From contig NZ_CP066776.1 in assembly GCF_010681825.2 (NCBI RefSeq), forward strand, positions 2,914,001 to 2,978,000: 64,000 bases of DNA, given 5' to 3'. The stretch's first letter is position 1. Each line of letters begins with the position of its first letter. Made by a program: the position numbers and the translations under genes. Below the pieces are notes generated by a model. That model was given only the letters and a program-made list of their open reading frames with translations. It had not been told where the DNA came from and did not search any database. Source of the DNA: Sulfuriroseicoccus oceanibius. GTDB lineage: Bacteria; Verrucomicrobiota; Verrucomicrobiia; Verrucomicrobiales; SLCJ01. Of the stretch, positions 18,834 to 32,970 are shown one piece after another.

Positions 18834-19736
18834 ATGAACACACCTTTTCCCACCTCGTCCTCGCCGGGCGGAGAATCCAGCGTCCCTCACACCACACGAC
18901 GCCCCGCGGATCTCTCAGCCCACCGCAACGCGGATCCCGTATGGGACGCTCTTCAAGAGGAAGCCGCCCGCGCGATTCAAGCCGAGCCCATCCTCGCCGC
19001 AGCCATGGACGAGACCGTACTAGGCCAGCCGTCACTCGAAGCCGCGGTCGCTGCTCGAATCGCCGGCAAACTCGAGGGCCACGGCCTGACTGGAGCCCAG
19101 CTTCTGCGCCTTCTCGAAACCGCCTACCTCTCCGACCCTGCGGTAGGTGATGCACTGCGCTGCGACTTGATCGCTATTAAAGACCGCGACCCCGCCGCCG
19201 ACACCTACCTTGACCCTTTGATGTTCTATAAAGGGTTTCACGCGCTGTCGGCGCACCGTGCGGCTCATTTCTTGTGGAAACAAGGCCGTCACACACTGGC
19301 ACGCCTTCTCCAAAGCATGATCTCAGAAGCGTTCGCCGTGGATATCCACCCGGCCGCCCGCTTCGGCTGCGGTATTCTTCTTGACCACGCGACCTCTTTT
19401 GTCGCAGGTGAAACCGCCATCGTGGAAGACAATGTCTCGATCCTTCACGAAGTCACCCTGGGAGGAACCGGCAAAGAACACGGCAACCGCCACCCCATCG
19501 TGCGCTCGGGCGTGCTGATCGGAGCTGGAGCCAAAATCCTCGGCAGAGTCGAAATCGGCCAAGGATCTCGGATCGGCGCCGGCAGTGTCGTTTTGGCAGA
19601 TGTCCCAGAGCATGTCACCGTGGTAGGCGTTCCCGCAGAAGTCGTGGGACGGGCATCCAGCTCGGAGCCATCCGAATGCATGGACCATTGCTCGATGATG
19701 CAGTCATCCGACTTTGAATGGGGCACCGGCATTTGA
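18834..19736 (+). CDS. cysE: Serine O-acetyltransferase
   Basis: This enzyme acetylates L-serine with acetyl-CoA to O-acetylserine, the first committed step of cysteine synthesis in the cytoplasm. Visible are the N-terminal helical SATase domain (about residues 35-140, including DRDPAADTYLDPLMFYKGFHAL) and the left-handed beta-helix with hexapeptide repeats (about 165-270). The active-site region HPAARFGCGILLDHATS and GGTGKEHGNRHP are both present. The length of 300 aa is slightly above the usual 270 because of a 30-residue Ser/Pro-rich N-terminus and a tail with two cysteines. It is divergent from the Rrf2 regulator. Confidence 0.93.
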   Translation: MNTPFPTSSSPGGESSVPHTTRRPADLSAHRNADPVWDALQEEAARAIQAEPILAAAMDETVLGQPSLEAAVAARIAGKLEGHGLTGAQLLRLLETAYLSDPAVGDALRCDLIAIKDRDPAADTYLDPLMFYKGFHALSAHRAAHFLWKQGRHTLARLLQSMISEAFAVDIHPAARFGCGILLDHATSFVAGETAIVEDNVSILHEVTLGGTGKEHGNRHPIVRSGVLIGAGAKILGRVEIGQGSRIGAGSVVLADVPEHVTVVGVPAEVVGRASSSEPSECMDHCSMMQSSDFEWGTGI

Positions 19737-26730: not shown

Positions 26731-29004
26731 ATGCCAAAAACACTCACCCTCGCCTCGCTCGCTCTCGTAACCAGTACTCTCGCGGCAGACCAGAAAATCA
26801 TTCAGTCCTATCAGTTCACCGGCAAGGAAACCGCTGCAGAGAAAATCGAGATCGCCGCAAATATCGTCCCTCACGAACGACAACTGGCCTATCACCACGA
26901 AGAGTTCATCGCGTTCATCCACTTCGGACCTAACACCTTCACAGGAAAGGAATGGGGCAACGGCATGGAAGATCCAAAAGTCTTCAACCCCACCAAGGTC
27001 GACACAGACCAGTGGTGCCGGATCATGAAGGACGCAGGCATGACCAAGGTCATCATCACCATGAAGCACCACGACGGGTTCTGCACTTGGCAAACCCGCT
27101 ACAATGACCAGTTCTCTGTGCTGGCCTCACCATGGAAGGACGGCCAAGGGGATGTCCTCAAACTCCTTTCCGCCTCAGCCAAGAAATACGGCCTCAAGCT
27201 CGGTGTCTACTTATCACCAGCCGACCTCTATCAGATCGAGCACCCCGAAGGCCTTTACGGAAACCTCTCAAAAAAGGTCGATAGCGTCATTCCCACAGCA
27301 CCGGACTCATTCCACTCCGACCCCATGAAGCAGCGCGAGATCGACCACGATATGCCTGTCTTTCACGCCAAGGTCGACGATTACAACCGCTACTTCATGA
27401 ACCAGCTCTACGAACTGCTCACCGAGTATGGAGAAATCCACGAGGTCTGGTTTGATGGAGCCCATCCAAAGCGCAAGGGCGGCCAAACCTACGACAAAAA
27501 ATCGTGGTTCAAAATGATCCGTCAACTCGCCCCTGACGCCGTCATTTTCGGCGGACCAGACATCCGGTGGTGCGGAAACGAACACGGAGGCACCCGGAAA
27601 AACGAATGGAACGTGATCACCATGCACGACATGGACGATCATTCCGGTCTCGATCGCCGCGAAGAAACCATCGGTTACGAGTCGGAAATCGTAAAACCGT
27701 CCTTCACCGTCTACGGCAAGGAGTGGAAAGCAAATTTCCTCAACTACTCTATCTCTGAAGTCGACACCTCGATCCGCGGTGGATGGTTCTGGCGCAATGA
27801 TCATGAACAACCCGTCAAAAGCGCAGACTGGGTATTCGACGTCTATGAACGCTCGGTCGGAGGCAACGCCGTCTTCTTGCTCAACATCCCACCGAACAAA
27901 GATGGCGTCTTCTCTGAACGGGATACCCAATCGCTCCTCGAAGCCGGTCGCCGTATCAAAGCCACCTACAGAACGAATCTCGCCGCAGGATTGCAATCTG
28001 ATGCCCCTAATCTGGATGATCAGGACCTCAACACCTTCTGGCAACCCGATGGCTTGTCCGGCCAGTTCACGCTGACGCTGCCACAACCACAAACCATCAA
28101 CCGCTTCACCCTCCAGGAGTCCATTACCAAAGTGGGCCAACGGGTCAAATCCCATGCCGTAGACGCATGGATCAACAACCAATGGCAGGAAGTCTCGGCG
28201 GCCGAAGCCATCGGCTACAAACGCATCCACCGCTTCCCGGCTGTCACTACGAATCAATTCCGCGTCCGCATTCTCGACGCCCGGGCAACACCCTCCATCG
28301 CCGAAGTCGCCGCCCATTATTATCAAGCCCCTCCGAAGAGCGTTACCATCACCGCGCATCACGGTATCGTCACCTTGAACACCGCCTCCACCGCCGGCCA
28401 CGACACGCCTTCCCCGGACTCACTTGAAATCCGATACACGCTCGATGGCACTGAACCCACCCAGACATCGCCACTCTACTCCGGCCCCATCACACTCAAT
28501 GAGGGCGGCACTGTATCTGCCCGCAGCTTCGCCGGCAACGCGATGGGGGAAGTCACAACCACTCGCGTCGGGATAAGCTCCGAGGGATGGAAAACCACCG
28601 CAAGCAGCGCCCACGCCGGGTACGACGCCTCCAAAGCCACCGATGGAAATCCAAACACATTCTGGCATACATCGTGGGCACCCGGAGCTCCCGCACACCC
28701 ACACACGCTTACCATCGAACTCCCTCAGCCTCGCAAAATTACCGGCTTCACCTATCTGCCCCGCCAAGACAAACGAGTTCCAGACTCCATGATCGAGAGC
28801 TTCAAGCTCGAAGCATCTCTCGATGGCAGCACCTGGTTCGCTCTGGGACATGGAGAGTTCGGCAACATCCTTAACGATCCTTCACAGCGCACGCATCTCT
28901 TCAAAAAAACGACACACCTCAAATTCTTCCGCCTCACCTCTTTGAGTTCCCCACAAGGCAAACCCTACGCCGGCGCCGCCGAAATCAGCCTCCTCGCAAA
29001 CTAG
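26731..29004 (+). CDS. Secreted alpha-L-fucosidase, GH29, with two CBM32-like domains
   Basis: It releases alpha-L-fucose from glycans. A signal peptide (LASLALVTSTLAA, about residues 6-19) is followed by the GH29 barrel (about 45-410). Visible motifs are EFIAFIHFGPNTFTGKEWG, VIITMKHHDGFCTW and EVWFDG, where Asp242 is the expected nucleophile. Then come a discoidin/F5-8C-type domain (about 415-530), a chitobiase C-terminal-like beta domain (about 535-605, with EIRYTLDGTEPTQTSPLYSG) and a second F5-8C domain (about 610-757). The enzyme is 757 aa. The fucI/BMC locus 9-20 kb away could use the released fucose (inference). Confidence 0.93.
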   Translation: MPKTLTLASLALVTSTLAADQKIIQSYQFTGKETAAEKIEIAANIVPHERQLAYHHEEFIAFIHFGPNTFTGKEWGNGMEDPKVFNPTKVDTDQWCRIMKDAGMTKVIITMKHHDGFCTWQTRYNDQFSVLASPWKDGQGDVLKLLSASAKKYGLKLGVYLSPADLYQIEHPEGLYGNLSKKVDSVIPTAPDSFHSDPMKQREIDHDMPVFHAKVDDYNRYFMNQLYELLTEYGEIHEVWFDGAHPKRKGGQTYDKKSWFKMIRQLAPDAVIFGGPDIRWCGNEHGGTRKNEWNVITMHDMDDHSGLDRREETIGYESEIVKPSFTVYGKEWKANFLNYSISEVDTSIRGGWFWRNDHEQPVKSADWVFDVYERSVGGNAVFLLNIPPNKDGVFSERDTQSLLEAGRRIKATYRTNLAAGLQSDAPNLDDQDLNTFWQPDGLSGQFTLTLPQPQTINRFTLQESITKVGQRVKSHAVDAWINNQWQEVSAAEAIGYKRIHRFPAVTTNQFRVRILDARATPSIAEVAAHYYQAPPKSVTITAHHGIVTLNTASTAGHDTPSPDSLEIRYTLDGTEPTQTSPLYSGPITLNEGGTVSARSFAGNAMGEVTTTRVGISSEGWKTTASSAHAGYDASKATDGNPNTFWHTSWAPGAPAHPHTLTIELPQPRKITGFTYLPRQDKRVPDSMIESFKLEASLDGSTWFALGHGEFGNILNDPSQRTHLFKKTTHLKFFRLTSLSSPQGKPYAGAAEISLLAN

Positions 29005-29408
29005 CCTCCCAGCACTCTCTCGTCCTCGCCCCGACCGCGATTTGATGCCAGCCATCAATTGCAATCAATTGCACTCGCAGCACCACCAAAACACACAACC
29101 GACTCATAGCAAATCACTTCCAAACCACTAGAAATAGAAACCAACTGACCAACGTTGGCGCAGAGATGGCGCAGAAAAGATCACACCACGTCTCCATCGC
29201 CGCCTACTCCGAATCAAGAAAATCTTCCCTCCCGGAAAAATATGAAATATTTCTCTATTTCTACCTAATCCATTGCCTAACTCCACCGTTCCTTACACAG
29301 CGGAGGCTCTCGCGCTTATGTTGCGGCGCAAAGCTCCGTTAGTCGCTAGTTAGACTGGGGTTGTTCTGACTAGCGACGTTTTTTTGCCCAGATCTCACTC
29401 AGTTCACC
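29005..29408. other. Gap after the fucosidase gene: REP-like palindrome, low-complexity stretch and terminator
   Basis: No coding sequence is seen. It contains the left REP-like hairpin (29040-29058), a degenerate ggcgcagaga direct repeat near 29157-29176, an AT-rich part at 29220-29275, a possible stem-loop at 29299-29339 and a strong terminator at 29342-29385. Confidence 0.6.
29342..29385 (+). terminator. Strong plus-strand terminator without an obvious gene
   Basis: A 13-bp stem with one mismatch (gtcgctagttaga with tctgactagcgac) and a 10-base loop is followed by G and seven T residues. The nearest plus-strand gene ends 338 bp upstream. A second stem (cggaggct/agctccg) lies just before it, so the pair may be the 3' end of a small RNA. 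Confidence 0.8.
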
Positions 29409-30563
29409 TTAGCCCCAGACATCCTTCACAAGATTCTTCATCGTGAAGTGATTCTCATCCTGCAGCCTCCCCCGTTTATCAGGAACGCGTATCCGACTCG
29501 CCAAAGTCTTTCTCTTGTCAGAGAAGCTCCCCGCGTAGCGCCGGAAGGCATCCTCCACAAAGCCCCGCGTTCCAATAACCAAGCTGTCGCTGAAATACCG
29601 CGTCCTCCGCATCAAATGACGCGTAAGCGCTGAATCGTTGGTGGAACCCTGTCGATCACCAACACGAGCTTCACGTGCGATTACAAAAGCCAACGCCTCC
29701 CGGTAGAGCTTACGCGCCGTCCCGTCACCTCGCTCCCAACTGTCCACCGCACAGTGCACAGCCTTGCAGATCCCTCGGCGAGCCCGGCGACTCCCACCAG
29801 CCTCAGCTTCCGCCCAGCCGCACCATCGATAATTCACGGGATCATCCACAAGCCTGGCCCTCACTGGGTTCAGATCAATATACAGAGCCACACTACGCAT
29901 CGCCGCATCACTGCCAATCAACACACTCTTGAACCGCTCCATCCAAAGCGTGCCTTTGCGTTCATGCCTACGATTGTACCAACGGGTAAACCGGACCTTC
30001 ACCTCATTCACAAAGCGTGACACATCGCACATTCGCGCCAGCAATCGCTCGATAATCTCTTTTCTCGCCTTCTCCTCTCCCCGCTTGCGCAGCGTCTGCA
30101 GCTGGTTCTCTAGGATCTGCACCGCATCGAGCGAGTACAAACACGAGATATGCTTCAGCAGCAATTTTTCTCCGCCAGGTTGCCTGAACTTCTCCAACGT
30201 CTTCTCCGCATCCGGCACCACGGCCAACACGTGGAAATGGTTTCCCATCACCGCGTACGTCACCACCTTCACCATCGAAAAGCGCGCCATCTTCCAGATC
30301 AGCTTTCTCAGAGCCTCCTTTTCCACATCATCGAAGAACACCTCGCCCCCCACGGTGCGACTCATCACGTGGTAACAAGCATCACGCCCCTTCTCCCCGA
30401 GAATCCGCTTTCGTTTGCGCTGCATACTCACCACTTTTCCGTCCGGTCCCTCGCGCAGATCCCACCATCCTGCGCCAACTTTCGCCGCGGTCTTTGCCTC
30501 GATACCAACCAACGCCCTACGCAAATCATCGCCCATTCCACGGGCCTTCGCTGTCGTTCTCAT
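29409..30563 (-). CDS. REP-associated tyrosine transposase (RAYT, Y1_Tnp family)
   Basis: The HUH single-strand nuclease core is visible: CYHVMSRTVGGEVFF, then the HxH motif in GNHFHVLAVV, and the conserved RFTRWYNRRHERKGTLWMERF carrying the likely catalytic tyrosine. SVALYIDLNPVRARLV follows. Proteins of this family nick REP hairpins. The C-terminal 130 residues, including a basic DKRKTLASRIRVPDKRG stretch, extend past the core. The start is uncertain: the frame stays open to 30617, inside the right palindrome, and M at 30563 is only one option. Inverted REP-like palindromes lie on both sides. Confidence 0.85.
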   Translation of the reverse strand: MRTTAKARGMGDDLRRALVGIEAKTAAKVGAGWWDLREGPDGKVVSMQRKRKRILGEKGRDACYHVMSRTVGGEVFFDDVEKEALRKLIWKMARFSMVKVVTYAVMGNHFHVLAVVPDAEKTLEKFRQPGGEKLLLKHISCLYSLDAVQILENQLQTLRKRGEEKARKEIIERLLARMCDVSRFVNEVKVRFTRWYNRRHERKGTLWMERFKSVLIGSDAAMRSVALYIDLNPVRARLVDDPVNYRWCGWAEAEAGGSRRARRGICKAVHCAVDSWERGDGTARKLYREALAFVIAREARVGDRQGSTNDSALTRHLMRRTRYFSDSLVIGTRGFVEDAFRRYAGSFSDKRKTLASRIRVPDKRGRLQDENHFTMKNLVKDVWG

Positions 30564-30711
30564 ACCAATGATTACGTCGCGAAATGGTGCGCGGCCGCAT
30601 TTGATGGCTGGCATCAAATTGTAGCTTCCTTTGCCTGATGGGTGTTAGCGGGCGCTTGAAAAGCGCAACATGGAGCAAGGCGAGGCATCTGATTTTGGCT
30701 GCGCCTCGTAG

Positions 30712-32970
<2,259 letters not shown>

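Follow-up and report, generated by a model that had tools for sequence, protein, structure and literature searches.

The closest described systems are REPtrons, in which a class-2 TnpAREP gene (RAYT) is associated with REPs. In the available text of two studies (PMC6006769; PMC8266576), TnpAREP/RAYT genes are described as domesticated and mostly single-copy, without evidence of mobility of their own, and the part available of the second, a 2021 paper (PMC8266576), makes the points on copy number and mobility for tnpAREP. Local accumulation of REPs near the gene was reported for three marine gammaproteobacteria and one betaproteobacterium in the accessible portion of Nunvar et al. 2010 (PMC2817692), and excerpts of Di Nocera et al. 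2013 (PMC3733652) describe REPtrons and TIRtrons, as well as an enrichment of GTAG repeats in one verrucomicrobium. The palindrome and the two-part element considered below, and mobile RAYTs in Verrucomicrobia, were undescribed in the titles and abstract openings among the literature matches listed, a search that covered few subscription journals and preprints.

The locus analyzed here lies in a 64,000-nucleotide stretch of Sulfuriroseicoccus oceanibius DNA (the window). We regard it as probably a REP/RAYT-type (REPtron-like) locus of a verrucomicrobial lineage, with a protein like the class-2 Y1 transposases of subclass 2.3. The unit would run from a 5' palindrome to about position 29235 and have a second copy at 820 kb, the same palindrome combined with a box would form solo elements, and the transposase would act on the hairpin.

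The RAYT gene and the extent of its unit

A first-pass annotation of this DNA had described a RAYT gene bounded by exact 19-bp inverted palindromes, and these are present where it placed them: ATTTGATGCCAGCCATCAA lies at 29040 to 29058 on the plus strand, with an exact inverted copy at 30601 to 30619 on the minus strand. From shuffled sequence, 0.02 matches are expected at up to 3 mismatches, and 3 mismatches were reached in 0 of 100 shuffles. The inverted arms extend to 29040 to 29062 and 30597 to 30619 (23 nt at 96%). Each palindrome also folds as a hairpin in single-stranded DNA, as had been proposed (-5.8 and -4.5 kcal/mol; z -1.93 and -1.56), although on energy alone this signal is modest for both. 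A reading of the palindromes as intrinsic terminators was rejected by eye, as no T-run follows them. The features of the locus are as follows.

29040 to 29060, plus strand: palindrome heading a separate solo element, in the orientation opposite to the RAYT (sequence match, solo alignment)
29155 to 29174, plus strand: second box of the 29040 solo, TTGGCGCAGAGATGGCGCAG, with GGCGCAG twice (98 and 109 nt past the palindrome core)
29235 to 29408, minus strand: 3' noncoding part of the RAYT unit, common with the 820-kb paralogue (blastn, 84% over about 158 nt)
29342 to 29377, minus strand: predicted 3' hairpin in which the copies here and at 820 kb differ by two compensatory pair changes (DNA fold z -4.35 in the window, -4.58 in the paralogue)
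29409 to 30563, minus strand: RAYT-type Y1 (HuH) transposase coding sequence, likely 384 amino acids from ATG30563 (PF01797, NF047646, motifs, Foldseek)
30465 to 30479, minus strand: GTTGGCGCAGGATGG box inside the coding sequence (codons VGAGW), a box common to the solo elements (GGCGCAG starts 124 nt past the 17-nt palindrome core)
30599 to 30619, minus strand: 21-nt palindrome ATTTGATGCCAGCCATCAAAT, the 5' edge of the RAYT unit (paralogue homology begins at window position 30623, 4 nt outside)

The reported overlap between the right palindrome and the transposase frame holds for the open frame of 402 amino acids, which begins at TTG30617 on the minus strand between the palindromes. For the true coding sequence the overlap is doubtful because congener proteins start at the equivalent of ATG30563 (MKTAQ... 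versus MRTTAKAR...), which probably leaves the palindrome 35 nt upstream. Assignment of the gene to the RAYT-type Y1 transposases is borne out by a PF01797 (Y1_Tnp) score of 35.5 bits against a cut-off of 23, a profile that 24 of 24 aligned family members match (E up to 0.001), and by NHFH at residue 108 and YIDLNP at residue 228 of the 384-residue form, the HuH and Y---NP motifs of RAYT/class-2 TnpAREP. The score for NF047646 (REP-associated tyrosine transposase) is 63 bits, under its cut-off of 80. An AlphaFold model of moderate quality (pLDDT 64.4, pTM 0.59) gave IS608 and ISDra2 transposases as the best Foldseek matches and the REP-bound Escherichia coli protein 4er8 at rank 27; the titles of the best 27 PDB chains all name IS200/IS605-type or REP-associated transposases, with none at E ≤ 0.001. 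Sequence searches of the PDB returned nothing relevant.

The proposal that the two palindromes bound one compact unit did not survive comparison with the paralogue at 820 kb, which is 86% identical over 1.4 kb. The match begins just outside the 5' palindrome, at genome position 2944623 (820293 in the paralogue), and ends at 2943235 (821682 in the paralogue; window 29235), 175 nt before the downstream palindrome. The paralogue carries the 5' palindrome (820299) and lacks the downstream one, its next palindrome being about 2 kb away. The common 3' noncoding stretch has a mean column identity of 89% in a two-row alignment, against the blastn figure of 84%, and its next best match in the genome has an E value of 0.16. 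An Rfam scan of 28900 to 30800 gave no match at E up to 1. A T-run follows the 29342 to 29377 hairpin on the plus strand, and this hairpin may also stop plus-strand transcripts entering from the neighboring plus-strand gene. Inspection by eye led us to drop an attC-like reading for the 3' region.

The edges of homology with the paralogue speak against the two palindromes as ends of one unit. Delimited in this way, the RAYT unit appears to run from the 5' palindrome at 30599 to 30619 through the gene to hairpins ending near 29235, and the left palindrome at 29040 reads as part of a separate solo element with its own second box. A single compact mobile unit made of the RAYT and both inverted palindromes, on the model of classical REPtrons, whose two flanking REPs are part of the unit, is unlikely; exact inverted copies do lie on both sides of the gene, and rayt genes are stated to be always flanked by two inverted REPs in the accessible portion of Nunvar et al. 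2010 (PMC2817692), but the downstream copy is missing from the paralogue, the common unit stops at 29235, and the left palindrome has the two-part anatomy of a solo.

A third RAYT copy near 59 kb has a full-length frame of 411 amino acids, is about 71% identical to the other two, and adjoins a RAYT fragment. In place of this palindrome it carries a TGACTGCAGGTGTCA-type sequence, and a full-length RAYT without the palindrome lowers our confidence in the reading we favor. The genome also contains a second RAYT-like pair (L031 at 1834 kb and L032 at 356 kb, 95% identical over 1127 nt), and the regions around them contain TGACTGCAGGTGTCA-type sequences, as does the 59-kb RAYT.

Two-part solo elements in the genome and the genus

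The genome-wide count that the first-pass annotation had suggested shows that the palindrome is not confined to this locus. A search of the 3.5-Mb genome for TTGATGNCNGNCATCAA gave 11 exact places and 2 with one mismatch, compared to 1 per strand for a reversed-pattern control. With the one-mismatch place at 2120572 judged a chance match and dropped, 12 credible places remain, comprising the 5' ends of two RAYTs (30599 to 30619 and the 820-kb paralogue) and 10 solo copies; a related sequence is also found at RAYT loci of relatives, as described below. The outcome that the first-pass annotation had named as its refutation, a palindrome missing from the rest of the genome and from related RAYT loci, thus did not occur. 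Twelve copies are few for a REP family, and the canonical REP foot GT[AG]G, sought 0 to 2 nt from the 5' hairpin foot on either strand, was present at 0 of the 12 places.

The solos have a recurrent anatomy. All 10 lie outside mechanically called open reading frames of at least 100 amino acids. In 9 of the 10, GGCGCAG follows the palindrome within 110 nt, inside TTGGCGCAGGAT or a variant of it; the box is absent from the solo at 191794. Spacing between palindrome and box is 65 to 66 nt in six solos, 76 nt in one, and 98 to 100 nt in two, one of which is the 29040 element. The palindrome and GGCGCAG are nearly invariant and the spacer is not, with a mean column identity of 52% across the alignment of nine solos. 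We take the solos as two-part elements, apparently noncoding and intergenic, in which the palindrome is joined to a TTGGCGCAGGAT-like box most often 65 to 66 nt away. The sequence TGGCGCAGRATNG has nine occurrences genome-wide: three are in RAYT coding sequences and three in solos, and the others are at 384130 (about 220 nt from a solo), 688740 and 2385142. It starts 124 nt past the palindrome in the RAYT copies here. For 5 of the 10 solos, one of the two palindrome-bearing RAYTs is no more than 10 kb away, a number reached in 0 of 200,000 random draws, and the solos include two direct pairs, 194 and 156 bp apart.

A congener (G001) has a related palindrome at 18 distinct places (21 rows, three pairs of which overlap; control 0). 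The box is present at 10 of these places and absent from 8, with a spacing of 64 to 66 nt in six and with two places sharing one box; a GT[AG]G foot was found at 1 of the 18. Boxes similar to those of our genome are found in six of seven congener RAYTs, and the ends of six of the seven copies differ from the congener solo palindrome. Two congener palindromes stand inverted about 90 bp apart (L205; contig C83 of G001, 19587 to 19713), resembling a REPIN-like doublet. Across 288 genomes of the order, the two-part pattern was found six times in our genome, seven times in the congener, and once each in 4 of the remaining 286, with 0 for the control.

These distributions bear on what the solos are. 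They could be an immobile conserved regulatory or structural site, such as an mRNA-end hairpin or a protein binding site, of which the RAYT carries one as its 5' regulatory region. Their intergenic positions, several of them between converging mechanically called open reading frames, together with the recurrent spacing and the unconserved spacer, would agree with such a site. We nonetheless consider it improbable, as the solos accumulate around two RAYT copies, occur as closely spaced direct pairs, and have a pattern restricted to the genus in the sampled order apart from the four single hits. That they are dead internal-deletion remnants of RAYT units, reaching from the 5' palindrome to the N-terminal codons and having no function of their own, is more doubtful still: a box does lie 124 nt past the same palindrome in the RAYT coding sequence, and most congener RAYTs contain similar boxes, but a spacing of 64 to 66 nt recurs in 6 of 9 boxed solos here and 6 of 10 in the congener, despite a decayed spacer and RAYTs only about 50% identical between the two genomes.

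The REPtron-like reading builds on what can be read from the sequence, namely the palindromes, the unit edges, the two-part elements, their clustering near two RAYTs, and the HuH and tyrosine motifs. Under it, the transposase would bind the hairpin in single-stranded DNA, and its HuH/tyrosine site would cut next to the hairpin. It would then copy or move either the unit that encodes it or the short two-part elements, in many cases to sites close by, with the box as a candidate second end of the solos.

Left ends and copies of related RAYT genes

Related loci were retrieved by six peptide patterns, one of which (MMPAIKCG) overlaps the palindrome, from records titled Verrucomicrobia, Verrucomicrobiales, Verrucomicrobiaceae or Prosthecobacter. 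Of 38 such loci, 34 were examined for ATGCCAGGCAT (L078, L079, L087 and L088 were left out). Near the gene start, 29 of these 34 have the sequence with no more than 1 mismatch; it lies about 50 nt before the start codon where the start position was read. Allowing up to 3 mismatches in the core raised this to 33 of 34, a laxity at which chance matches are not rare. The left ends in genomes G018 and G048 have other sequences.

Pairing within the hairpin was compared in 63 RAYT-linked rows, among them 33 of the 34 examined loci, 16 rows from a 40-locus set (all G018 and G048 rows, L124, L129, L140 and L142 left out), and 12 rows of genome G007 picked by the pattern itself, with the duplicate L058/L127 included. 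Positions at distances 3 to 5 from the center are paired in 57 to 63 rows and those at distance 2 in 51; the outer pairs mostly fail, with distance 7 paired in 17. Our own solos pair well outward (distances 6 to 8 in 9 to 10 of 10), and congener solos are paired at distance 7 in 5 of 15 and at distances 8 and 9 in 12 of 15 each. The own solos carry G-C at distance 6, a position with A-T in many RAYT-linked ends, and mostly T-A at distance 9, where congener solos carry C-G; such two-sided changes favor a hairpin. Because pairing often fails at the RAYT-linked ends, what is conserved there may be the sequence GATGCCAG rather than the hairpin.

Genome G007 has 17 exact ATGCCAGGCATNNAGT places and one RAYT match at E ≤ 1e-20; several of these copies lie near contig ends, as expected of an assembly-breaking repeat. 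Short tandem duplications with a period of 9 to 15 nt were also seen at RAYT 5' edges, where they comprise flank and the first element bases and end inside the palindrome. They occur in 9 of 53 copies (L139 with about 10 repeats, L191, L071, L080, L189, L192, L200, L127 and L084), compared to 4 of 914 random positions. The flanks of L058 and L127 are 100% identical, so that this one place is counted twice and the 53 copies are 52 distinct ones; the set leaves out copies in which no core was recognized and one copy too close to the edge of its contig. Some G018 and G048 copies, which have other ends, show similar duplications on inspection by eye.

Several genomes carry multiple RAYT copies, which allowed the edges of within-genome similarity to be located by blastn in G001, G044, G040, G018 (8 of 32 matches listed) and G048 (8 of 14). 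The matches listed for these five genomes are about 34 to 58% identical to the window protein. Similarity begins 45 to 70 nt upstream of the start codon in 14 of 21 G001 pairs, 13 of 21 G044 pairs, 5 of 6 G040 pairs, 28 of 28 G018 pairs and 18 of 28 G048 pairs. Its 3' edge lies in the interval from 30 nt ahead of the stop codon to 15 nt beyond it in 15 of 21, 19 of 21, 4 of 6, 23 of 28 and 3 of 28 pairs, respectively; in G048 the common part usually extends further and in many pairs reaches about 250 nt beyond the stop. Flanks of the copies are mostly unrelated, with some repeats in common. The eight G018 copies compared (L144 to L151) are 90.5 to 95.4% identical, and since in 27 of 28 pairs their similarity does not reach the stop codon, each appears to take its own C-terminal tail and stop codon from the flank at its insertion site. 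Copies present in several genomes as one unit with sharp edges suggest, by comparison of sequences, that these class-2 Y1 genes are mobile.

No empty site was found, either by joining the flanks of RAYT copies or by comparing flanks between genomes. When the flanks of 38 copies were joined over a range of edges as a test of insertion into genes, five copies (L135, L147, L148, L154 and L157) gave the longest open frames across the join, with 286 to 349 nt on the shorter side; two of the five use edges at the limit of that range, and none is claimed as an empty site. The flank comparison gave one site common to two genomes (L139/L060), occupied in both.

The chances seem to us evenly balanced for a wider reading in which the Verrucomicrobiales class-2 (subclass-2.3-like) Y1 genes are autonomous mobile elements. 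Many would have the short upstream GATGCCAG palindrome as their left end and the end of the coding sequence itself as their right end, the stop codon coming from the target in one genome, and one genus would have generated miniature elements of the palindrome and a TTGGCGCRG box. If true, this would provide a DNA partner for the subclass-2.3-like group and show that TnpAREP-type genes are able to move.

Comparison with known systems

Inverted repeats also surround the RAYT-like genes of TIRtrons (TIRYT), as described in the available part of Di Nocera et al. 2013 (PMC3733652), whereas the repeat here is a short palindrome whose downstream copy belongs to a separate element. The locus shares the Y1 HuH fold with the class-1 IS200/IS605 elements, and the several intragenomic copies with sharp edges in relatives are also alike. 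It differs in its class-2 tyrosine motif, YIDLNP rather than Y---Q, and in a right edge near or inside the end of the coding sequence in G001, G044, G040 and G018.

Among TnpAY1 proteins, the likeness is to subclass 2.3 as set out in the accessible text of Quentin et al. 2018 (PMC6006769), with NHxH and Y[IV]DLNP motifs, HuH and tyrosine separated by a long stretch, a long C-terminal tail, and several copies per genome in many relatives. NHFH and YIDLNP are nearly identical to the NHYH and YVDLNP of that subclass, and 120 residues separate HuH and tyrosine, compared to 113 in four of five Alteromonadales/Vibrio plasmid proteins (the fifth had no regex match) that we infer to be subclass 2.3 from length, motif and taxonomy. 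A tandem duplication of about 40 nt, seen by eye, lies upstream of one such subclass-2.3-like transposase gene, on a Pseudoalteromonas plasmid (L231). Unlike subclass 2.3, the window protein has an N-terminal extension and lacks the 10-amino-acid b1-aA insertion; a 9-column gap is present in 9 of 9 verrucomicrobial alignment rows, its placement at b1:aA judged from the text available of PMC6006769. No REP-like sequence was found for subclass 2.3 in the portion of that study available, in contrast to the associated palindrome here.

With REPtrons (class-2 TnpAREP with REPs), the locus shares a Y1 HuH transposase with the Y---NP motif, an adjacent palindrome, dispersed intergenic copies, and accumulation near the gene. 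Palindromes flank the gene and recur elsewhere in the genome, as in REPtrons, but the downstream one lies outside the unit, so the flanking pair does not belong to it as a whole. Copies are also few and without the GT[AG]G foot, and in the solos the palindrome is paired with a nonpalindromic box instead of an inverted REP. We judge the locus to be a REPtron-like variant whose architecture is distinct. Of greater interest is the apparent mobility of the wider family, as judged from comparison of its sequences. A multicopy family with sharp edges and a candidate terminal hairpin makes both RAYT mobility and the DNA partner of subclass 2.3 testable, and the family could be intermediate between insertion sequences and REP systems.
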